Assembly: GCA_905250025.1 (NCBI GenBank)
Contig: CAJNOJ010000130.1
Location: 124,001 to 188,000 of the forward strand
DNA from: Adineta ricciae
Lineage: Eukaryota; Rotifera; Eurotatoria; Adinetida; Adinetidae
Direction: 5' to 3'
DNA: 64,000 bases
Shown: piece by piece, positions 45,052 to 63,960 of the stretch
Layout: the number at the start of each line of letters is the position of its first letter
Numbering within the stretch: the stretch's first letter is position 1
Made by a program: the position numbers and the translations under genes
Notes under the pieces: generated by a model
What the model was told of the DNA's origin: nothing
Seen by the model: the letters and a program-made list of their open reading frames with translations, nothing else
The model's database searches: none

Positions 45052-45443
45052 ATGAAAATGAACCATTGTTATCTTTTACAAATTTCTCTCGTATTCATGC
45101 TCCTATTTTCAATGTCCTTCGGGCGGATATTACCTGCTCGTCAACTTGATTCCTATGATTACGAAAGTAAGTCATTCAAATCTCGTTTCTCTTCGATATA
45201 CGATGTTCTCCTTTCTTTCTAGAACAACTGAATTTCGAATCCGATATGTCCGATCTAGCTCATAGTCAACATAGACAGTCAGACAAAGACGTGCATGTTT
45301 ATCAACGAGCCGTTCTAAGTACATCTCGTGCATCTGCAACTCGTCAGCAAATTATTGATATTCTTCGACAAGCGTACAATCAAGGCTGGAAACCTAATAT
45401 AAAACACTATATGCCCGGAACAAGATTTGGTCGACATCGTTAA
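45052..45443 (+). CDS. Putative RFamide neuropeptide precursor
   Basis: Two exons (45052-45166 and 45223-45443) join in phase to 111 residues. A signal peptide (CYLLQISLVFMLLFSMSFG) is followed by a short propeptide with scattered single arginines and lysines. The C-terminus reads WKPNIKHYMPGTRFGRHR. The TRF-G-R sequence is the classic signal for cleavage at Arg and conversion of Gly to a C-terminal amide, giving a peptide ending in TRF-amide. Only one amidation site exists, and the upstream helix-like RQQIIDILRQAYNQ has the length and position of the helix in neuropeptide F/Y peptides. Membership of that family is not certain, since the usual RPRF or RQRF ending is absent. There are no other domains and only one cysteine, inside the signal. 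Confidence 0.6.
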
Positions 45444-47050: not shown

Positions 47051-48402
47051 TCAGAACAAATCATAGAAATAGTCAAGACCTTGACCACCATCCCAAATAG
47101 CCACACCAACATTGAGTTTCATTGCTATTTTTAATCGTTCATAGATCGATTTCAATGTTGGATAGAAAACAATCGTTTGAGGCAGTGGTTGTTGGTCTTG
47201 TTTAGTCGGACGTGTCTGAACAAACGTGACATGTTCGTGTGCACGTGGATCGAAGATAATGGCAGTTGTCGAGAAGGATTTTTTCAAAAAATCAATATAA
47301 TCTCGGCCAATGATTGGTTTCATTCCATATTGTTGCTGTTGAGGATCCGCTTTGCCCTTTGCATTAGCACGATCATAACGATAACCATAAAAATTCAGGC
47401 CGAGAAAAACTTTCGCTCCACCCTCGACTTCAGGTTTCGAAAACTTCTCCATTGTGCTCTCTACCCATTCTTAAAAAAAGATGATAACTCGAGTATAGAA
47501 ATGTAATTCAAGTTCATTAACATACCTAACGGAGCAACCGGACCCGGTTCACGATTAGGAAAATCATATGTCATTACACTAAATCCATCCAAATATTCAT
47601 ATAACAAGTCAAAATCATTCTTATCAAATAATTCATCGTAGGGCGGAACAGCTAGAATTACTTCTTTCTTCGTTTCATTACTATTCAATTGATGCACATG
47701 TTCAGCAATATCGCTAATGATATGATTTAATGTTGCTTTGGAGGCGCCGCGGAATTGCATAAGTAATTCAAGAACATAACCGTCAAATAAATCTTTATGT
47801 TCAGTAAGAAAAGTAGCAAATGTTCCTGCTAACTGCTGTTTTTCTTCTTCTGATTGAAACAACGCATGAGTGTCATCAGCAGACCACTTGTCGAAGATAA
47901 CACGCGGAACGATACGTATTTTTGGATTGTTTTCTTTCAATGTTTGAATCCATTTCTTATCAATGTCATGTGTGCCTTCCATAACATACTTCTCGGCACT
48001 TTTACGCTTAATACTTAACCACACTGGTGAAATATAATCGAACTTTTTCGTAAATGTTTTTGCGATGTCATATCCATGAGCATTCCAAGGTGTTATGTAG
48101 ACAAGTGTCGGATGAGTGAACTCACGTGTTTCGGTACATGTTGAACAGTAGGATTCGTGATTTTCAAGGATTAATTGCGGATTCAAGTTTTCTGTGACCA
48201 GTTGACGTTGTAAGACATTGCTTTTCATCGGTGCAGATGCGCGGATATCTGCCGAAGGGTCTTTCAATTGCGCAGGTGGTACTGGTGTTGAACTGACTTT
48301 TTCTGTGGAACGAGCTACGGTTTTACGAGTACCGGGTCCTATTGTTGTCTCAATAGAACATAACAAACACACAAATATGACGACAGATAGACAATGTGTC
48401 AT
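47051..48402 (-). CDS. CHID1: Chitinase domain-containing protein 1 (SI-CLP), GH18-like lectin
   Basis: Lysosomal or secreted GH18-fold protein that binds glycans. Two exons (47526-48402 and 47051-47469) give 432 codons. It starts with a signal peptide (CLSVVIFVCLLCSIETT). Conserved stretches include LVYITPWNAHGYDIAKTF, ISPVWLSIKR, THDIDKKWIQTLKE, IVPRVIFDKWS, LDGFSVMTYDF, FLGLNFYGYRYD and the C-terminus VAIWDGGQGLDYFYDLF, which matches human CHID1 (VSIWELGQGLDYFYDLL) closely. The GH18 catalytic DxxDxDxE is replaced by FDGYVLELL, as in other CHID1 proteins, so it should be non-hydrolytic. An ATTTTAG acceptor-like site abuts the ATG. Confidence 0.93.
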
Positions 48403-48849: not shown

Positions 48850-51800
48850 TTATGCATTTAGAGACGTTGGTAAAGCAGGATTTTGAATAAAATTCATGCG
48901 TTGTTTTTGTGTTCGAGATTCTGTGACCTAAGCAAAGGAATTAGACAAATGAAATTCAATCTAAATTATGGAATTTTACAAGTTTTTGTAATTCAGATAA
49001 TTCGGCTGCTAATGTTTTGATTGTTTTGTTCGCATCTTCCATTTGAAGTTTCAATAGACGATTATCCTGATCTTCTTTGTTTTTCTCCTCTTGATTATCC
49101 AAACTACTCGTTCGCATACGCGGAAACCATTCGAGATTTCTTTGCTAGAAAAAAAAAACACATTCGCTTTTCAATCTTGACTATGAAGAACAAATACGCA
49201 CTTCGATCATTTCATGAACATAACTCTCCGGACCAGTGTATTCCGTTGAGTCTTTGACATGAATCAAAACCATGAAATAGACGTAATTCCACATATTATG
49301 AACTTTATGGACATGATCTTCGAATGTGACATGTTTGTTGTCGAATGATTTACGGTCGAGTCCTACAAAAGAAAACACATTGATTTTGATCATTGTGCAA
49401 AGATTCAATCGTACCACAAATGAAACATGTATTACGAAGGACTTCATCATTTCTTTGTTTTTCTGTACGTAAATCAGCAAAATTATCAATGATCACACCA
49501 AAAATCAAATTCAAGGTAATAATAATAACAACAAAGAAGAACATCATATCGTAAATAACTCGGAAGAAGTACAATGGTTCCTAGAATAAACATTGTATTG
49601 GCATAATGTAGACTCCGTGATCACTCACTTGACTCGAAGGTTGTCGGAGGACATCTCCGATTCCACCGCCATTCCGTAAACCTTTGTTCAGAGTAGTTAC
49701 AATACACATAAATAACGTATCACAGGCACGTTCGACTTCATCTTCTCCTGCATCTTCAGGTGATAAGATTGGTATTTGAGTGGAATGCCGAAGATGCCCA
49801 GTCAATGTGTCATTCGAACAGTTACCTTTCGTACAATATCGATCTTCTATACTATGTGAAACCGTTGTTGCTAAAAAAGAGAGACAGACGTTTAGTTAAG
49901 GTTTGTTGGAACGAGGAAATAACGAAGGAGACAATCACGAACAACGACTAGTTTTGACATACGTGTCAAAGTCACTGTTTTAATCAAATGGCTTGATCGT
50001 CGGTATCGAAGGAAATTATTTTGTGTTTGAATATTCGTATAGAAATCATCACGGAAAAAGACAAACCCCACAAGAGAAAATAGGTAAATGACTATTAAAG
50101 CTAACAGCATAGTTAACATGATTGATTTGCCATTTCGAGTTACAGATTGCATCACGTAGGATAATGTTGAATCTCGAAAAATTATATCGAACAACTGGAA
50201 AAATAAAAATTCGTTATACAAAGATTTCCTTACTCTTTGAAAGAAAAAGTATTTAGAGAAGACAAAGCAGCGTGTATAAGCACAGAAAAGACACTTACGA
50301 AATCGATCGGTGTAGTTTTTCAATGTCGAATTTATTGTTTGATCTTCAATTGCAAGCGCTTTCGTTTTCACTTCCATGAGGAAATCATCTTGGATAAACA
50401 GATATCCACAAATAGCAAAGAGATAGATGATAATAACAGCGAAGACAGCTGTTAAAATAACAGATTTAGCATTGCGAACAACACATTGAATGACATTCCA
50501 CAACGTATCTTCACGATAAACAACATCGAGTAGCTAAGAAAAACGAATCCACGACATCACACAACACATCAACAGCAAAACTTACCAATAAGCTATAGAA
50601 AAATTCATGAACGCATAAGCCAAACACACACAAAGCTAGATAACCCATGTGATAGACCAATTGAAAGTTCGTTAGATTTTCATAGCGTGACCTGGAAAAC
50701 GTGCCATTATTACCCATAAAACTTACTAAAAACACTCCTTTATTTAAAACCTATAAAAAGAAGAAACGAAATTAAGTCAAATGTGTGAGAGCAGCTTCGT
50801 ACTTGTATCGCGCCCATGAACCATAGAGTTGGCCCGAGTCCGATGGAATAAATCGATCTTAAAATTCCTGCTACAAAGCACATACGCAATGTTGTTACAT
50901 TAGGTTTTAATAATGTGGTTATTAGTGTAATTAAAAATACACTCCAGATTGCTGCCGAAGCACGAGAATCGAGATCTGATGAAAAGAAAAGCAAACCCAT
51001 CGTCGGTGCTGATGATTTTTAGTAGAATATACTTTACCTTTCAAGCCTTTATTAAATGGATAAAACACAGCAACAAGAATGTTGATCAACACTGCGAAAT
51101 TGAATGAGATATCACTCCAAAGGGACATATGAGATGAGAACCAGTATAAGGTCGGTTGATGACGCAATTTTCTTTGCCATTTCATTTCCTCGAAGATCTC
51201 CGGAAATTTTCCAAAGAAATCTCTCACTTTCGATCCCTGTTGATCTTGTTCACAAGTGAGAAAAACTTTCTGTTTCTTTTCGTTTGTCAAAAATTCACAT
51301 AGTTGTGGAACAGGAAAGACAACTAAACAAAAATATGTTCAATAATAAGTCAATTCGTATTGGACAGGACATACTAGGTTCAATAGATCGATCATGCCGT
51401 ATGATTTCAATCTCCGCGGTGTGTTTATGATAATATGATAATGCTTCGTCATTTAACGTTCGGATTTTCATCAATGCTTCCAACTCACGATTATGACGCG
51501 AAAGCTGAAAGATATTTATCATGGCAAAGTTATTTATTTGAACAAGAAACAAATCGTTTACCTGATAGGCGAGAATATACATGTTATGACCAACAGTTTG
51601 AGCAACATTATCCGGATTATCATTAGCTTCTTCCTCGTGTGTTTCTTCAAGATTTTCGACTTCTTTGTGTTCGACTTCTTCTTGTTTACCACGAGCATAA
51701 ATTTGACAAGCAACATCGATCTAAAATAACCAGATTGAAACATCTCCATCTTATCAAACAAAACTCGAACGTACCAATTGTGAAACAGGATTGATATTTC

Positions 51801-54800
51801 TAAGAATACGTTCAGCATTGGTACTGTCATCTCGACTTTCCATTACGGCTAAGAGTAACTTCGATGCATTATCCTTAACAAAGAACGAATAACAACATTC
51901 GATTAACTCTTCCAGTAGAATACAATTACTTTCAATTCTAATACAAGATCATAATTCTTTTGATTTAATGGTGTGATATCATTCAACACAATAGCAATAA
52001 TGATATCGATGCCATTGGATTCGTGATTGACAATGGCATCCTGATTATCTCGACATGGTCCTTGGCAGTATTCAGTTAGAGTATTTAATGCTTGATTGAT
52101 CAGTTCCACATTATCTTCATTAATATAATTTCCTAGAAGACCAAGTAAACCTGTTTGAGAACCACAGATTGCATCGAGAAATTTCAATGTCTCGCAAACA
52201 AGATTGTAATTTGTTTTGTTATTATCTTGTAATCGGAGATAGTTCTAAACGAAATAAAAGGAGATTAAATGACAACAGATTATGAAAGTGCATTACCTGA
52301 AATTCAGGATTGTGATTTTCACAGAGCAATTGTAAGAATCGTAAGATTGGTTGCATAATTCGAAGTTCAAACGCCAATTTATGACGACGATTCTGCAGAC
52401 TAAAACAATTAATGTACTAATGAGATTGACTTTCTTGAATATCTTACTGAATATCGAGAGTGTCCACCGAGCCCGGTGTTGAATTTTTCGGTCGATCGAT
52501 TTGCAGTGGAATGTCATAGGTCGTCAATGTGGGTTGCAATTCTTGTGGTGAATCGATTTCCGCCTCATCTACATCGACACAGAGAGTTGATTTCTGAAAA
52601 ACATTCATTTTATCGAGCATACTTGACACATCATCTATCGGAGGTTGAAGTGAAACTTCGGATGCTGGATCGATGGTAAACTTCTCATCTAAGGGTGGTG
52701 CAAGAGACGGTTGAGGACCACTTATCATTGGAGTTAATATCGACGACATATTGATAGACTTAGGCGTGAAGGTAAAATCATCGTATTCATCAGTGTCTTC
52801 GGTAATATCATTACTAACTGATGACATACTCTTCAGTGTTTTTTGTGCGACATACATTTTATCGTAAAAAACTTGAAAGAACTTCTCCGACGCGGTCTCA
52901 CATCCATGCAAACGACGAAATATACTTGTCTGAAATTTATTCATTGTTTAAAGCGTTGCTTATGTCGAAAGAATCAAATCTTACTTGCACTTCAGTGTTT
53001 CCTCCTTCGAGTAGTGCGATCGCTAGATGGATACTTTCTTCGAGAATGTTCATCGATGATTGACTAATGAATAATTCCACGACAAGATCACTTGCACCTT
53101 GTCTGTTCAATTCATTTTGTGTTAATCGTAATCGTTCGAGAGCATCTTCTTCTAAATAAAAGAAAATCTTTGCTTTTTAATTCTGTTGGTTAATCAAGAT
53201 ATTTCGCACAACAATTGACTTTTGCCGAAAAGTGGTAATAATCCTTTAGTTTTGCATAGTTTTAAAGGAATCATTCGATTATGAGATACCAATCGAACAA
53301 TAACGAGACTATGCCAGTGGGTAGATTCGAACGCTATCACATTGCCTTCTAAACAATTCAATCGTACCTTTTAGCGGTTGATGAAGCGATTTCAGATATT
53401 GTTTGTCATCCGAAAAGTACCGTCGTAACAATTTTAATCGTAAACTTTGTCCCTGAAAAAGAATTTCACATTGAAATATGTCAAACAGTTTCAGTTTAGA
53501 TTACCATCGTATCGAACTCGTGATTGCTTTTCACCATCGATTTCAATGCGTGCATAATTCGTAAACATAGATTTTCATTCGTTCGTACAAGTAGATACTT
53601 CGCGTGTTGGATAAACCTAAGTGCACATGAAGTAAAGAACATCGGTATACAAAAGCTTACTTATGAATCAATGTTCCAGAGAGAAATTTCGATCGACATT
53701 CATTATTTTCGGGAAACAAGGCATTCGGTGCTCGAATGACATCCACAAGTACACTGATCTCTGCTTGAATCAACGGATTAAGTCGAACACTAACATCAGA
53801 TAGATATTCCTAACGACGAAATAGGATATTTTTCAAAAATTTGCCGATGAACGTCATTTACCACAAATCGATCGATGACACGTTTATGTTCTAAATCTTC
53901 GGAATTATCGCACACATCTGCGAGATAATCGCTACTATGCCGCCGGCCGGACACGGTACTGTGGCTAGTACGGCGTGAACGATTGACTGATTCACTGATT
54001 GAACTGTGACTTGAACGAAGAAAATGAAGAAGTCCTCGACGATCAGCTAGAAAGATGACGATATTCAATTCTAACTTCACCAAAATAAACAAACAAAAAT
54101 CTGTACCAATCGATGCAATCACATGAACACATCGTTCAATTCGTTCGCGTTGAACAGACGATAGCCATGGTACACTTAATAGTCGCGTTAAATGACTATG
54201 TAACGATACCAAAGTCGTATTTCGATGCTAAATATGCAGAACAATATCAATCAATGAACATAACATCGTCTATATCCCCAACAATATCACACGCAAAGAA
54301 AGGAAATCACGCATGCAAAAAAAAAGAAGGAAAGATCATTCCGAGAGCTCGCATAACTTACGTGTGTTCCACTGTTAACTATGATCTGCAACAAGACATC
54401 AATATGTATAGAAAACATGCACAAGAAACAGTAGTGTTATGTTTTTTTTTGTATGTTAGTGACATTTCTAATCATTCAGCAAGAGGAACGGTTCTGGTTT
54501 TTTTTTAAATATTCTAGTGGAAAGTACCTCCCAAGAAGCAATTATTGATGGCGCGATCTCAGCTGATCGACTATCATCAAGCATATACTGATCCTATGAT
54601 TAGATGTTATTAATTATGTTTTTTTTATTAAGAAAAATCAATGATTGAAGAATAGTGTTGAGAGATCGTGCTTACTTGTGGCGCCGATGATTGTTCAAAG
54701 AATGGTGAGTTGAAAAATTGATTAATCAAATCGATGATAGTTTCTAAAATGTATTTATCCAAATACCGTTGTTCCACTGATCTTGTTATTAACTGAAAAT

Positions 54801-57800
54801 AAACGGCGAGAACATAATCAATCTGAAGATGATCACTTTTTCTTACTTTTTCTATATCTGGACAGAATGATTTTTCGATTAGTGTGTAAATATGTTGACT
54901 GTTGTAGATTTCTTTCATTTCCACTTCAGTGTCGATGTAACAATGAGTGAGAAAGGTGATATACGCATTTTTAACCTAGATAAAGCCGGAATGTAACAAT
55001 AATTGTCAATAAGTATTGAAAAGACAAACTTCAGGAATACAATCTGGATGTGTGACGATGAGAACTAGATCATCGAGACCTATTAGTGAGTGACATTTGA
55101 TTTCAGTTGATGCATTTTTTCCTTCGGTACACATTGCGAGTAGATGAACAAGTTGTATATGATAATTCAGTAAGGAATTCGGATCTGATCGTTCACTGTC
55201 CGATTGCATACGGTCGACCAGATCAGAGAGATTGCCTTTTTCATAAAACATTAAAACTTCGTCCGAAGTAACCAACTAAAACGACAAAATTAGAAGATTT
55301 GTACGAGTTCCTTTCGAATATTACTTCCGACATGACGATATCTTGACAATTTTTTATATATTGTCCTTCTGCTTTGATGATTGTTTGGAGAAATTTGATA
55401 TAAATCACTTTACGACCATGTAGTTCGATTAAATGAACAAAATGTTGAACATGCTTCTCCGTTATTGTTTTACATAGATGAACATTGTTGAGAAATATAT
55501 AACAACATGTTTCGACTTCTTGTTCCTATGAAAAATCAAAAGAAAGTATGTACAATTCATGACCATTCTTACCTCAGATAATTGCTGATAATCATTGAAG
55601 TACAATTCATATAATTTCGCTTGATTCGTTGGATTTTCATAACAAAAATATTGTAGCAGATTATGAGCTAATTTCATTATGCAATTCATTCGAGTATCCT
55701 CTACCTGCAAAGATATCCATTCACGTTTTCTCACTGAAAATCTTTCGTTTATCCTTACTTTATCATACGGAATCTTTAATAAATCTAAGACAACAACATG
55801 GACATCCATATTTCTCAAAAGACGCTGTTCATTTTCTCGCGCATGCAACGTCCCGTCAACGCCTTCCATCACACATAGTTTGATCATTCGCCGGAGGATC
55901 TAAATATGAATTCGCGATGAAATATCTCATTAATATTCAATTATTTCGGTAAATTTCCGACAAAGAAATCATATTCAATCTACACGCGCAAACTATGCAA
56001 TCAACGAAATGATCCATGCCGATACGTTCTATTGCTTTAAACAAAATTTTCAGTCAATTGATCTTTAAAACAATAGATTGAAGTCAATATGACGAATCAT
56101 GCATGGCAAAGACAATATATACATAAAGAAAAGAATAGAGCAATGCTAGCACATGTAATAAAGAAGCACTTGAACCCATAGTGAAAAAAAGAACAGAGAC
56201 GAAGAAGTGCAAGATCTAACGTAGAGATCAAACCCTCTACATATGAAATATCCCATTACCGTGTCAATGAATTTATGTATGCCCTGTGAAATACGACAGA
56301 GATAGAGAGAGATAAAGAAAAACAGAATTAGTTCAATAAGTATTTTGTGTATAGGTAAGTTTGAAACATGCTAATGAGACTATTTCTGAAAAGGACAGAG
56401 AGAGAGAAGCGATTAGATGAGCGCTACTGACCTGAAATATCGATGTATAGCGATATGCTGAGTCTTCATTGATAATCGGACCGCCAATATCGAATTCTGT
56501 ATCAGTAAGACCAGACGAAGTAACCAGTTTCTTCAATCAAATAAATAAACGAGATTAAACGTGACAAATTCACTCTGACTAATTCAGTTGAATTTCTTTG
56601 TTACTCGACAGGCTTTTCCCATCAGAGAACAGTCTGCATATTTCGCAAGTTCAAATAGCGTCAACCTCTGATTGGACTTTAGTTTCATATGTTCAGGTTT
56701 CTAGTGAGTTCATACCTTGATTTCTAATTCATCTTCTTTTCGATCTTCTTGATCGGCTTGTCCATCCGCTCCATTTGCCAACGCTAAACCATCTTTGCCT
56801 TTTTTATAAACCCATAATTCCGATTTTTCGACAAATAATCTCAATTGATCTAAGTCTTGCTTGATTTGCTTATAATTTTGAATATCTGTTTCACTAACTA
56901 GTAATTGCACTTGATTCAGATGTTGTAGAGTTTCTTTTCGTTGATTAAAATGTCGGAAAAGTAAAGATAAAGCACGAGATACTAAGGGTTGATAATCATG
57001 CATGACTAAGTTCAATAGAACTTTCAGGAATGTTTTGCCTTTTGCATCGTCTAGATCGAGATTGGGCTCACTGGAATCGAATATACATTCGATATCAGCT
57101 GTTTGAAGTAGATTTGGAATTGAATCTAGACCGAAGAAGAGAGAGACTGAAAATGAATTCGATGTCGAATACTATTTACCAGGATGATCGTATTTTTGTT
57201 TGAACATCGAAATCAAACGCGAGATGCGGAAATCGAGACGAATATCGAGGATGAATTCCAATATTGCAATAACATTCATCTTGGTTTCATATGCCAAATC
57301 GTCGAGGGTATCATATGTTTGTTCGATGTTGACATCTGCACCTGAATACAAGGTAGGCGCAATGGCTGGTTCGTACTTTGTCGATTTCGATGTTGATACA
57401 ACGACTGATGAGACTAGATAATGAAAATTTACCGAGTAGTTGAATAAAAAGAACAGCAAACCTGGCTCTAGATGTGGTTTAGATATGGAGACTTTGTTTG
57501 TATCAAGGATGCCGAGGAGTGTTTGCGTCAGTTTGAGTAAATCTTCAAAACTGTAGAATCCGAAGAAGATTAGCCGACGAGCGAGATTAACAACCTGAGG
57601 AAACGAGTGAGAAACGATGGCTCTTCTGTAGAGAAGATGTTTACTTCATGAGTCAGTTTGTTTTGTTCACCATCTGCGAATGAGTTTGGTTGCTGAACAA
57701 CCGTCTTGAGATAATCTTCTACGAATTTCATCGTCGATTCAAAATTAATCCGATTTTCCTGCTTTTCCGATGGGTCAAGTGAACCACTGATGGTTTGATC

Positions 57801-60800
57801 ATAACTGTAACACAAACAAATGATACAACATCATTTAGTCATCTTTTCGATACGTACTCATTGAGTGTTATCGTTGGTTTCACTTGATTCCATAGTCGAG
57901 CATATTTGATACGGGTAACTTCTTCTTGTGGATCACGATTTACGTGAATATGAATCATTAGACGACAAAATGCAGCCCGAAGATCTGGTGGAAGATTCTC
58001 ACTCTTTATACATCTAAATTCGAGAAGAACTAATGGAATGCTTGAGTAAGAATAGTTGACACTTACGTTAGAATAAGTTCAATTGGTAATTCCGCGGATA
58101 GATTATCAATAGCGAGATATTGTCGATCGAAACACATATGAGAGAACAAATTCAATTGATATCTATGAAAAAAAATGCATTGAAATCTGATTGATCGGTG
58201 AAATGAAATAACAACATACCTATAATATTCTAATATATTCTTGAATTCTTCTCGTTTCAGATGTGTTGGGTGATCTCGGATCACTCCGGCCATGTATTCA
58301 ATTGATTCTGACTTTCCATCCCATGTTAAAACGACTTCCGGCAGGATATTCTGCTGAGAAAATCCAGTCGGTGGACTAACCGTGTCATCTAACACAGTAT
58401 CTTCAATACAGGTTTTTACTTCCAGTCTACTCAAACAAAAAAAAACATTGATTCACGAGGAAAAACTTTCATTTCAAACTGACTTTGTTCGAATCAATAT
58501 ATCCGAATTCTTCTCTAACACTGATTTACATATCATTTCTTGTGTTCGAGCAATAGCTTGATTACTGGATACGCATAGATCCGATAAATATTCTAAAAAC
58601 CTTCAACGGAAAACAAATCATTATATCAAACGAACCGAATTCATCGATGACACCCTACTTGCAATCTCGCTTCTCTCTTAATAGTTTAACAAATGTGTCG
58701 ATTTCTTTTTCAGTGATGTGTTTCTCTAATAATTTTTTGTTGTTATGTAACAATGCAGTGATGGTATCTTCAGCGAGAATATCATAACCAATTTGGGATT
58801 GCATAAAAGCAAATTCTTTCGCGATGGTTTCCTTGTAGAAATCAAGACGAATAAATTGAAGAAAAACTCAAACTGAAGGTTATACTTGATTTTTTCGATA
58901 TTCCTGTTGACAATGCTTGAGTATTCGATAGCAAAGACGACAAATTGTTTTCATTTGGTAAGTTGTAGTTGAATAGCGTATATCAGCATCTTGCTGTTGT
59001 TGTTGAGATGAAATATAATGTTCATTAGCGGACGATACAGGTGAATTACTGGCAAAATGTTCTGAGCTTTTCGAATTATTCATATTAGATCGTTCAAGTT
59101 CTAGACGGGGTTTCAATACTCGTAGGACGCGAAATAACTGAAAGAACAACAATATTCGAAATCGAATTTTTCCAAGTACGGCTCATACCTGCTTGAGAAT
59201 ATTCTGTTCACGAATCAATTTTTGTCTCTCACGATTAGGTTTCAAGACTTGTACCTCAAAAGGATCACTTCCATTGTTCTCTTGACATGCGAGAAAGTAA
59301 ACAATATCAGTTAATAATAAAATAACTTGTCTAGAAGAAGAAGATCAACAGCAGACACAATGATTCAACTGAATTTCTTCTTCTCTTGTCTTACTTTCTT
59401 TCATTAGCATGAACATTTATGATTCCGATTTTTTCCCATTTCGATACAGTGACATCGAAATGTTGGGCAGCATCATTAGCAAAATCGAGATCTCGGACTT
59501 CATCGGGTGAAACATGCACTATTTGAAAAGCTTCTTTATCTTCTTTCAACAGTGCGCAACCAATCTTGAATCGAACATTATCGTCATCTGGGTCCAATTT
59601 GATATTCGTCGAATGCACCCATGTGTTTGTGCTTATATGCTGCAAACGTACATATGAGCCCCATGGGACTGGATCCTCGTTACGTGTTATAGTTGTTGGA
59701 TCAAATTCAAATATCGAAGAAATGTCGTAACCATGAGGGATAGGAACGAGTGCAAAGACAGGTGTACTTGGTGGACCTCGCAATTTCTGTCGTGTGGCAT
59801 CAAACGTTTGATCGAGGTCGACTTCAGCAGCGAGATATTGTCCGGTAGCGAGATGTTTAAAGCGAAATAATGAACTCCAGTGACCAACACCACCACGACA
59901 TGGATCTTGTTGAACAACTTCGATTTCCCATAGAGCATTGGACGATGTAGCGGATGTGGCTGATGCACGTCCAGTAGCACGTAGAAAAACAACACTTTTC
60001 TTTCGATAATTATCACAGGTGAGAAATTTTTCTTGTTCAGCATGAAATAAACGAACAATATCACCCTAAATCAAATGAATCTGATATATAAGACAGAAAA
60101 CTAATCGTTGCTTACACTCTTCAACACTTCATTCGTAGCTTCGTGGCACGACACGAATAGAACAATTTTCCAACTTGTTTGAATATGAGAGTTCACCTGC
60201 GAAAGAAAAGATAAAAGTAATACACATACAGAAACGTCATGAGTTTTATCATGCACGGTCAAGTTATTCGGTTTAGTTTACAAACTGATTGGTTTTTTTT
60301 CTAAATAGATCGTTCGAATGAGAAAGTCTAGATAAAACGAACATGTCTGATCTATTTAGAAATAAACCAAACACAAGAAAAGCGTATTAAAGATGAATAC
60401 AAAACAATATTGAGATAGGTTGTCAGGGGTAAGAAAGCTATGGATTGACATCAAAACATACGAGATTAAACGAATAACAATTGATCTAAACAATAGACAA
60501 ATCATTCAATCAATCAATCACATACACATGCATAAGATATTCACTGCAAACGAAAGAAATGAAAAAGATAAATTTTTTCATTTATCTAGGTCGGTATAAC
60601 AATCAAATGAATACCGTATGAAGATTAATCAAACTGCAACACTAGAAGAGAATGATTCTGCAGGATGTTTTCTCTTGGAATGGATCTGTCTCCTATATAC
60701 ACATAAACATAATTGCTGTACATACTTCTTTTGATCCAGGATGATCTGGTAATTCCAATTCACTGACATGTAATGGTTGTCCGCCACTATACGGCATCAG

Positions 60801-61504
60801 CACAACTTTATCTCCAACAACAACCTACGAGAAAAACTCGACTTGTTTTATCATTCTTATTTGATTCGACGACATACACGTTCGCCTTTCGCTCGTAGTT
60901 TATAATACGGTTCAATTTGAAACCATGAACCTTCAGTGCCACTGACATCCAGCGAAACACGCATGGCATTTTTCTCCAAGAATGCGGGTAGTCGCTTGTT
61001 AACAGTGATGTATTTATTGCTTTTGATATGAAGTAATTGGACAATAGTATCACCATATTTGATCACTGTGCCCGTTTGCTTTCGACTTTCTTCTTCGTTT
61101 TGACGTTTTTCGGTATCAGCAGCGATTTGTAATTTCTTCAAGTCTCGAACGATGTTCGGACTCTTCAATGCATTCCAATATTGCGTTTGAGCACTGTAGC
61201 GATGGCTCGGACATATACGAAATAGGCAATCTTTTGTCAAAGAAAAAGTATTTCGAATATTTTTCATTTATTTTTCATTTCTTCTACCTCGATACTTCTT
61301 CGGTGGCTTTTGCAGATCACCAGCATCAGGTTGAACAACGCATCGATCATCAACAAGACTATACACATAAACATACAGACAGTCAAGCAGAACAATGAGT
61401 TTCTCTTACCCAAGTGTACTTATAAATCCACAAACAGTTCCTTCGGCATATAAAGCTATTGTATCGCCAATTTTCAGAAAACTGGATGTTAAATTCGACT
61501 CCAT
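48850..61504 (-). CDS. ITPR: Inositol 1,4,5-trisphosphate receptor, full gene with duplicated S5 exon
   Basis: IP3-gated calcium channel of the endoplasmic reticulum, read from ATG 61504 ([20 protein letters not shown]) to TAA 48850 through several dozen short introns. Domains in order: the suppressor and MIR beta-trefoils ([54 protein letters not shown]); the IP3-binding helical domain ([22 protein letters not shown]); RIH and regulatory domains ([37 protein letters not shown]); the six-helix channel; the selectivity filter [13 protein letters not shown]; inner helix [15 protein letters not shown]; and the CFICG zinc-type linker with [11 protein letters not shown]. Phosphate-contacting Arg/Lys of the helical half are conserved, but the first Thr of the RTTGR loop is Ala here (RATGR). 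It is not a ryanodine receptor, because SPRY repeats are absent. Two alternative exons encode S5. Confidence 0.97.
49963..50194 (-). other. ITPR alternative exon B (S4 end, S4-S5 linker, S5)
   Basis: 232 bp, acceptor TTTTTCCAG, donor C|GTATGT, phase 0 in and phase 1 out. It encodes [20 protein letters not shown], a hydrophobic S5 ([20 protein letters not shown]) and FFRDDF, then a basic loop start without N-glycosylation sequons. It is open throughout and aligns one-to-one with exon A just upstream. Confidence 0.85.
50299..50533 (-). other. ITPR alternative exon A (S4 end, S4-S5 linker, S5)
   Basis: 235 bp, acceptor TTTTTCTTAG, donor C|GTAAGTG, phase 0 in and phase 1 out, the same as exon B. 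It encodes [21 protein letters not shown]5 ([20 protein letters not shown]) and QDDF, then a loop start with NST and NYT sequons. The upstream constitutive exon ends in FFYSLL and the shared downstream exon starts at 49870. Confidence 0.88.
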
Positions 61505-63043: not shown

Positions 63044-63960
63044 TTAATAGATAAATAAACGATTTGAGTGTGTGTATTTCTTGAACAACTGACGTCCGTC
63101 ATCAGTTGGTGCCGAAAATGCCAAGTCAGCACGTTTTATAACAATACCGAAGAAAAAATTTGTGCTAAGAAAAAGAAAGACTATCAATTTCTTCTTGCAA
63201 AAAAAAAATTCATGCGAAAGAACAACCCGACAAAAAGAAACTGATCTCTTCTCGTGAAACTAAGCGTGAAAGCGATATTTACCGAACACAATCGAGTAAT
63301 TTCGTTGCAATACGAGCTCGACGATGATCAGGATGTACCCATATCCGAGCGATTCCACAAAGCATTTTATTCATTTCAGTTTCAGTATCAATATTTGATT
63401 CATCAGTTAAGTCAAGAACATGAACCTTGAAAAGATAGAATGCATATAACAGGAAGAAGAAACATTGGTGCTTACCCGATGAACAATGTGGGCGAGACAG
63501 TAACCAAGAACAATATCACTACAATCTTCAATGTAAAAGTACGCCTAGTGAAAAGAAAATAGAGAAATTTAATTAAAGACGCATTTCTTTTACTTTGGTT
63601 TCACTCCATAAACAATTAAATGGTGTAGTGATTCCTAATTCATTATCAACTAATTCCCTGACATGTTCAGCCTTTTTCTGCTCGGACGCCGGCGACGTGC
63701 AACCAATCATATAAATACTTCCGTCAAGAAATTGCTGTAACACATATTGATGTTTAAAATTCTTAACAAAGTACGAGTAAAAGACGTTATCTTCTGTTTT
63801 TGTCAAGTATGATTAGAAAATTATTTACTCGTAATCGTATTGCAGATGTCGTGAAATTATGATACTTTGCATGAGCAGCTTTATCTTCGGCTGAATTAGG
63901 AAAATATGCCATACCACAACGCTTACAAATAGTTGCGTCGACCGTTTTTTGTCCGGCATC
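63044..63960 (-). CDS. ESCO: ESCO-family cohesin acetyltransferase, 5' part beyond the window
   Basis: Acetylates SMC3 to establish sister-chromatid cohesion. Five exons join in phase: 63829-63960, 63594-63761, 63476-63544, 63283-63425 and 63044-63164, ending in TAA. The first visible exon carries the C2H2 finger (CKRCGMAYFPNSAEDKAAH ... KYH) typical of Eco1/ESCO. A linker with VRELVDNELGI follows (human has VQELVDNELGF-like). The acetyltransferase core reads CGIARIWVHPDHRRARIATK, with the acetyl-CoA loop RRARIA, and the final exon has LAFSAPTDDGRQLFKKY (human IAFSDPTPDGKLFATKY). The C-terminus ends NRLFIY. At least one more 5' exon, preceded by the acceptor at 63961, lies to the right of the window. 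ESCO1 and ESCO2 cannot be told apart from this part. Confidence 0.93.

Follow-up and report, generated by a model that had tools for sequence, protein, structure and literature searches.

The window analysed here, a stretch of 64,000 nucleotides from the bdelloid rotifer Adineta ricciae, carries on its minus strand a gene for an IP3 receptor (ITPR), within which two neighbouring exons of similar sequence, here called A and B, code for corresponding parts of the channel. IP3 receptors are central Ca2+-release channels, and the S4-S5 linker and S5, to which both exons contribute, adjoin the gate and the pore. The features of the locus are collected in Table 1. The gene model begins at the first methionine that it uses, and it is cut at its lower limit, near the C-terminus.

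Table 1. Features of the ITPR gene around exons A and B, in positions of the window.
Feature	Position	Strand	Description
ITPR gene	48965..61504	-	about 46 coding exons; approximate model from dynamic programming, with the copy on contig C23 as guide
Upstream exon, common to both isoforms	50586..50750	-	ends in phase 0 (...HEFFYSLL)
Intron preceding exon A	50534..50585	-	52 bp
Exon A	50299..50533	-	235 bp; S4-S5, S5 and luminal start (two sequons, NST and NYT); phase 0 to 1
A-B intron	50195..50298	-	104 bp; readable as an open frame from A in the window copy only
Exon B	49963..50194	-	232 bp; alternative S4-S5, S5 and luminal start without sequons or acidic residues; phase 0 to 1
Hairpin spanning the exon B 5' splice site	49941..49978	-	fold prediction and comparison of two copies
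Intron following exon B	49871..49962	-	92 bp
Downstream exon, common to both isoforms	49629..49870	-	remaining luminal loop, pore helix, selectivity filter GGGIGD
S6 exon, common to both isoforms	49415..49580	-	from gene model and translation

The gene had been recognised as an IP3 receptor in an initial annotation made from the sequence, and this identity is borne out by domain and structure searches. Pfam matches to Ins145_P3_rec, MIR, RIH_assoc and Ion_trans were found in pieces of the gene, and the protein tails joined through A and through B match the solved chains of ITPR2, ITPR3 and ITPR1 with E values from 1.9e-64 to 4.6e-57. Matches to the chains of ryanodine receptors (RyR) are weaker, with E values from 5.8e-24 to 5.8e-17, and because the ITPR chains match so much better, the gene is assigned to the IP3 receptors and not to the RyRs. 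The selectivity filter has the form GGGxGD. The S6 exon is 96% identical between the two copies of the gene described below, and introns have a median length of 56 bp across the two gene models.

Anatomy and reading frame of the exon pair

Both exons have a length of 3n+1 and are open in the frame claimed for them. Exon A is bounded by the acceptor TTCTTAG and the donor GTAAGT, and exon B by the acceptor TTTCCAG and the donor GTATGT. The coordinates, phases, splice sites and open frames given in the initial annotation were all recovered from the sequence and its translation, and so was its count of about 25 identical residues among the first 51, the figures being 25 of 51 and, over the first 54 residues (the core), 25 of 54. 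This similarity is not due to chance, because in searches of the whole genome (a 130-Mb assembly of 1033 contigs) exon B retrieved exon A at an E value of 5.9e-13 and exon A retrieved exon B at 7.7e-13, both below 1e-12. Each exon passes the Ion_trans cut-off of Pfam by itself. No other tandem exon pair was found at E 0.01 in either gene copy among model exons of at least 15 residues.

The frame was examined by translating the upstream exon followed by A, by B, by both or by neither, and then by the next three exons. Readings with A only or with B only are free of stops in both gene copies (four combinations translated). When A and B are joined, the test reading runs for 181 codons before its first stop in the window copy and for 146 in the copy on contig C23, and when both are left out it runs for 62 and 77 codons, respectively. 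The frame shift predicted for the use of both exons or of neither does therefore produce stops, and it does so in both copies. In the mechanism that we propose, a productive mRNA would always contain exactly one of the two exons, which provides the channel with the end of S4, the S4-S5 linker, S5 and the beginning of the luminal loop; the use of both or of neither would shift the frame and truncate the channel before the selectivity filter and S6.

In the window copy, exon A, the intron and exon B can be read as a single open frame, which continues into the next exon without a shift, with 0 stops in 435 codons, as would be needed if the intron were retained, or A and B were used together, to give a channel with a doubled S5 segment. 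The corresponding read-through of the C23 copy, however, contains 26 stops in 434 codons, the splicing of A to B truncates the product in both copies, and a doubled S5 would be expected to invert the topology of the downstream part of the channel. We therefore give a doubled segment almost no credence.

A second gene copy and selection on the exons

The searches with both exons found one other strong locus, on contig C23, where the counterparts A' and B' (82% and 66% identical to A and B) lie in the same order. Exon A' is at 409575-409788 and B' at 409900-410143, with the next exon at 410258; the A'-B' intron has 111 bp and the one after B' 114 bp, and the phases and the frame logic are unchanged. 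The automatic model of this copy was forced along a wrong path through A' and B' and includes short exons of doubtful status; A' and B', together with their neighbours, were placed manually. Weaker matches of the exon searches fell on contigs C48, C81 and C91, with E values from 0.009 to 0.3. The two ITPR copies have 82% protein identity over 2840 aligned codons, and by the Nei-Gojobori count their dS over the gene is about 2, which is near saturation. In the RIH_assoc exon at 51930-52244 (minus strand), all 105 of 105 residues are the same in both copies, though synonymous divergence over the gene is so high.

The surroundings of the two copies are alike on one side. Downstream of the receptor, both loci carry a glycosyl hydrolase 18 gene, at 47078-48402 (minus strand) in the window, as identified by Pfam, and at 411.8-413.1 kb on C23, as identified by tblastn, and beyond it a further collinear match links 45306-45431 of the window to 413918-414058 of C23. 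For the gene that lies upstream of the receptor in the window, no match was seen within 5.2 kb upstream of the receptor on C23. The C23 copy is probably an ohnolog of the degenerate tetraploid bdelloid genome; in PMC5916493, ohnologs are described as the more diverged pairs, and the tetraploidy predates the divergence of the bdelloid families. The two glycosyl hydrolase 18 neighbours are only about 52-54% identical. The gene upstream of the receptor, at 63279-63960 (minus strand), contains a 79-residue piece without a Pfam match, and by eye it resembles an acetyltransferase of ESCO type. Arrays of TGTGGG, a telomere repeat considered as a lineage marker, are only consistent with a bdelloid lineage: the repeat has 28 matches on 6 of the 1033 contigs, and the reversed control, with 30 matches, finds the same array in another register.

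In a tree of the 54-residue core that includes ITPR2, exon A groups with A' in 100 of 100 bootstraps and exon B with B' in 99 of 100, and the duplication of the exon is therefore older than the split of the gene. The core is identical at 54 of 54 positions between A and A' and at 41 of 54 between B and B', the values between the classes being 25 to 27 of 54. Identity to ITPR2 over the same core amounts to 34 residues for A and 31 or 32 for B.

The two exons were compared by dN/dS, as the initial annotation had proposed. The ratio is 0.075 for A and A' (dS 0.92), falling to 0.009 over the first 57 codons, and 0.157 for B and B' (dS 1.57), with 0.096 over the first 57 codons; Fisher P values are 1.1e-11 for A and 2.4e-9 for B. 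For the whole gene the ratio between the copies is 0.061, a value that includes the faulty stretch of the gene models at A and B. It follows from these values that both exons have been kept as protein and that B is not decaying, and by this measure both are under purifying selection. Between the copies, 61 of 78 residues of A and 51 of 77 of B are identical, which places them in the middle and lower part of the range spanned by the 43 other exons listed; that range extends from 0.1, for exon 1 with its faulty second model, up to 1.0. Synonymous change in exon A is slow compared with the rest of the gene (Fisher P 0.016); an additional synonymous constraint on A was dropped, since 6.5% of 496 sliding windows are equally low.

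These figures bear directly on the possibility that exon B is a relic of the duplication, a pseudo-exon that is open by chance and is not used. A relic would account for the faster change of B than of A in the core. A relic would not, however, be expected to give a dN/dS as low as that of B and B', with the P value quoted, nor to have escaped stops and frameshifts in both copies despite a dS of about 1.6, nor to have preserved its frame, its phase and both of its splice sites in each. Absence of B from all relatives, or its neutral decay, would according to the initial annotation have refuted the proposal of mutually exclusive isoforms; in the one relative compared, the C23 copy of the same genome, B is present and is not in neutral decay. 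We regard an unused B as very unlikely.

The proteins encoded by A and B differ in ways that are shared by the two copies. Seventeen core positions are specific to one class and constant within each class; the ITPR2-like residue is found in A at 6 of these, in B at 8, and in neither at 3. After the motif DDF, A has two sequons (NST, NYT) and A' one, while B and B' have none. In the same stretch B has 4 K/R, 1 His and no D/E, and B' has 3 K/R, 4 His and no D/E, as against 4 K/R and 4 D/E in A and 1 K/R and 2 acidic residues in A'. The contrast drawn in the initial annotation, of two sequons in A and a sequon-free, basic stretch in B, is thus correct, and the difference in sequons is retained in both copies. 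In the alignment ITPR2 carries NRT in the corresponding luminal stretch, so that it is A which retains a luminal sequon at this place and B which does not. The next exon, which is common to both isoforms, encodes the sequons NCS and NDT in the window copy and NCT and NDT on C23, and B channels therefore still have sequons. Isoform A would then have a luminal start with N-glycosylation sequons, and isoform B one that lacks both sequons and acidic residues but contains basic residues and histidines, together with a different face of S5. Such a difference may affect gating, conductance, glycosylation, luminal regulation or assembly.

Several general rules that might keep two exons apart were considered. 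Steric exclusion is not indicated by A-B introns of 104 and 111 bp, compared with the median given above, nor a distant branch point by the position of the last AG, which lies 34 and 28 bases upstream of the 3' splice site, and a mixture of U2 and U12 sites was rejected, since the upstream exon, A and B all have GTAAGT or GTATGT as donor. An asymmetry in splice-site strength was likewise discarded, there being no consistent difference between A and B in the two copies (matrix from 80 introns). That the steric, branch-point and U12 rules fail to explain exclusion could be turned in favour of a different role for the pair, in which A and B are alternatives but the joint or absent form is itself used, as a poison product by which nonsense-mediated decay would silence the gene, with one protein isoform in most cells; the early stops that arise in both copies from A plus B and from neither point the same way. 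Class-specific protein-coding residues are nevertheless kept in both exons, although an exon with a regulatory role alone would not require them, and poison splicing of this kind seems to us a long shot.

As a whole, the observations are best explained by the tandem duplication of an exon in an animal IP3 receptor, with A and B as mutually exclusive alternatives, and we put the probability of this at about 0.88. Mutual exclusion had been proposed in the initial annotation, and it is supported by the frame logic in both copies, by the retention of the pair in a diverged copy and by purifying selection; from the anatomy and the selection together we infer that A and B are spliced exclusively. 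Two types of channel are very probably made by choosing A or B, and we infer also that both mRNAs are produced and that the choice between them is regulated.

A predicted hairpin at the exon B donor

The 5' splice site of exon B is predicted to lie in a hairpin with two stems. The inner stem, of 7 bp, pairs 49964-49970 with 49953-49959 (exonic TTTGACA, intronic TGTCAAA), and its loop, CGTA, displays the GT. The outer stem, of 8 bp, pairs 49971-49978 with 49941-49948, the exonic ACAGTGAC with the intronic GTCGTTGT. On C23 the inner stem is ATTGACA/TGTCAAT, in which one pair has changed on both sides in a compensatory manner, and the outer stem retains 7 of its 8 pairs with an identical intronic arm. 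In all, 14 of 15 pairs are kept across the copies, a result matched in 581 of 100000 trials in which equally many changes were placed at random, for two sequences only, with the arms aligned by hand and the structure chosen after looking. The donor-proximal part of the intron after B aligns somewhat better between the copies (z 3.7) than the remainder (z 2.7), in an alignment for which the C23 coordinates are one base too long.

Folding of 46 bases gives z values of -2.5 and -2.8 at the B donors of the two copies, compared with -0.9 and +0.3 at the A donors. Among the 99 donors of both gene models, the doubtful donors of both included, the B donors take the first two ranks, both by fold energy (22+24 bases) and by stem length, and over six sizes of folding segment they rank 1-4 of 99 by fold energy, with the A donors at 16 to 84. 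Each hairpin taken alone is no rarity, because an equally long stem occurs at 1.3% of the 1601 GT sites of both genes and an equally stable fold at 2.0%.

Measures of accessibility give a mixed picture. Ordered from most closed to most open by mean unpaired probability over positions -1 to +6, the B donors rank 91 and 92 of 99, and they appear open by this measure because the GT sits in the loop; in these models, the measure speaks against a simple masking of the B donor. When flanks of 30, 60 and 100 bases are included, the predicted cost of opening positions -3 to +6 places the B donors at ranks 6 and 7, 13 and 15, and 8 and 16 of 99, respectively, and at the shortest flank the window copy's A donor stands at rank 10 of 99, so that the modelled cost at B is high but neither unique nor extreme. 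When about 1.1 kb of sequence is folded, the pair probabilities of the outer stem are 0.77-0.88 in the window copy and at most 0.47 on C23, where the outer stem is uncertain in long context.

With these qualifications, the predicted hairpin is the best candidate for a regulatory element in the choice between A and B, and as such is unproven. It may modulate the binding of U1 at exon B, and a hairpin that binds a protein is equally possible. Since the ends of the U1-binding stretch would be held in the stem, B would be usable only once the stem had been opened or bound. Gating of the hairpin by temperature was also considered and dropped, the predicted cost of opening declining gradually between 4 and 42 degrees at both A and B, without any switch-like step. 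We offer, as a tentative proposal that is more probably wrong than right in its full form, that the pair is a switch gated by RNA structure, which predates the genome duplication of the bdelloids and swaps S5 and the luminal mouth between a glycosylated form (A) and an unglycosylated form rich in basic residues or histidine (B); a protein or helicase that opens or binds the B hairpin would admit exon B, and Ca2+ release from the ER would thereby be retuned.

Relation to known exon pairs

The second SPRY domain of RyRs is, to our knowledge, absent from IP3 receptors. It is in this domain that the ryanodine receptors of insects have mutually exclusive a/b exons (IASI), according to portions of PMC3342285 and PMC6026295. 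The insect pair resembles the one described here in being a pair of a/b exons in the superfamily of intracellular Ca2+-release channels, and differs from it in position, since the ITPR pair lies in the S4-S5 and S5 region of the pore domain. The use of a and b in insects was measured in cDNA clones and varies with stage and body part. The survey in PMC6026295, which covers 26 insect species, leaves mutually exclusive exons in IP3 receptors unmapped and states that they "cannot be dismissed"; the A/B pair bears on the question left there.

Tandem duplicated exons are described for voltage-gated Ca2+ and Na+ channels in sections of PMC9741552, with three events each in CACNA1C and CACNA1D; according to the same sections, tandem exon pairs are ancient, are enriched in ion channels and have evolved independently in human and fly families. 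These pairs are similar to the ITPR pair in being homologous tandem exons of an ion channel, but voltage-gated channels sit in the plasma membrane, whereas the IP3 receptor is a ligand-gated channel of the ER. The A/B pair would show that diversification by exon swapping, as in voltage-gated channels, has occurred in an ER channel also. Mammalian IP3 receptors are alternatively spliced at the sites SI, SII and SIII. Known alternative splicing of the IP3 receptor concerns the same gene, but involves optional exons and not homologous, mutually exclusive ones. A further case is an optional exon of the Tribolium IP3 receptor, encoding residues 922-929 and reported, in an excerpt of PMC4204029, to be conserved in human IP3R1; unlike A and B, it is far from the C-terminal pore domain.

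Neither ITPR nor ryanodine is mentioned by name in the main text of PMC9741552 or of the human survey PMC5740500. Mutually exclusive exons in the pore of an IP3 receptor were found in none of the literature matches listed, as judged mostly from titles and the openings of abstracts, which agrees with the initial annotation, where no mutually exclusive S5 exon in an IP3 receptor was known. Since pairs in channels have been published and no IP3-receptor pair is among the matches listed, we consider the kind of exon pair known and its site, in S5 and the luminal mouth of an IP3 receptor, new as far as these searches go. A natural swap of the S5 segment that has been kept by selection provides two directly comparable pore variants of one channel.

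The hairpin has a parallel in exon 10 of MAPT (tau), where a hairpin at the 5' splice site is implicated in the rate of exon inclusion, as described in part of PMC9236610. In both cases the hairpin lies across an exon-intron junction. MAPT exon 10 is included or skipped, whereas exon B would be swapped for a homologous partner, and the MAPT hairpin is backed in that source by mutations and in-cell probing, compared with prediction and the comparison of two copies for exon B. The hairpin at the B donor makes the control of the A/B choice testable.
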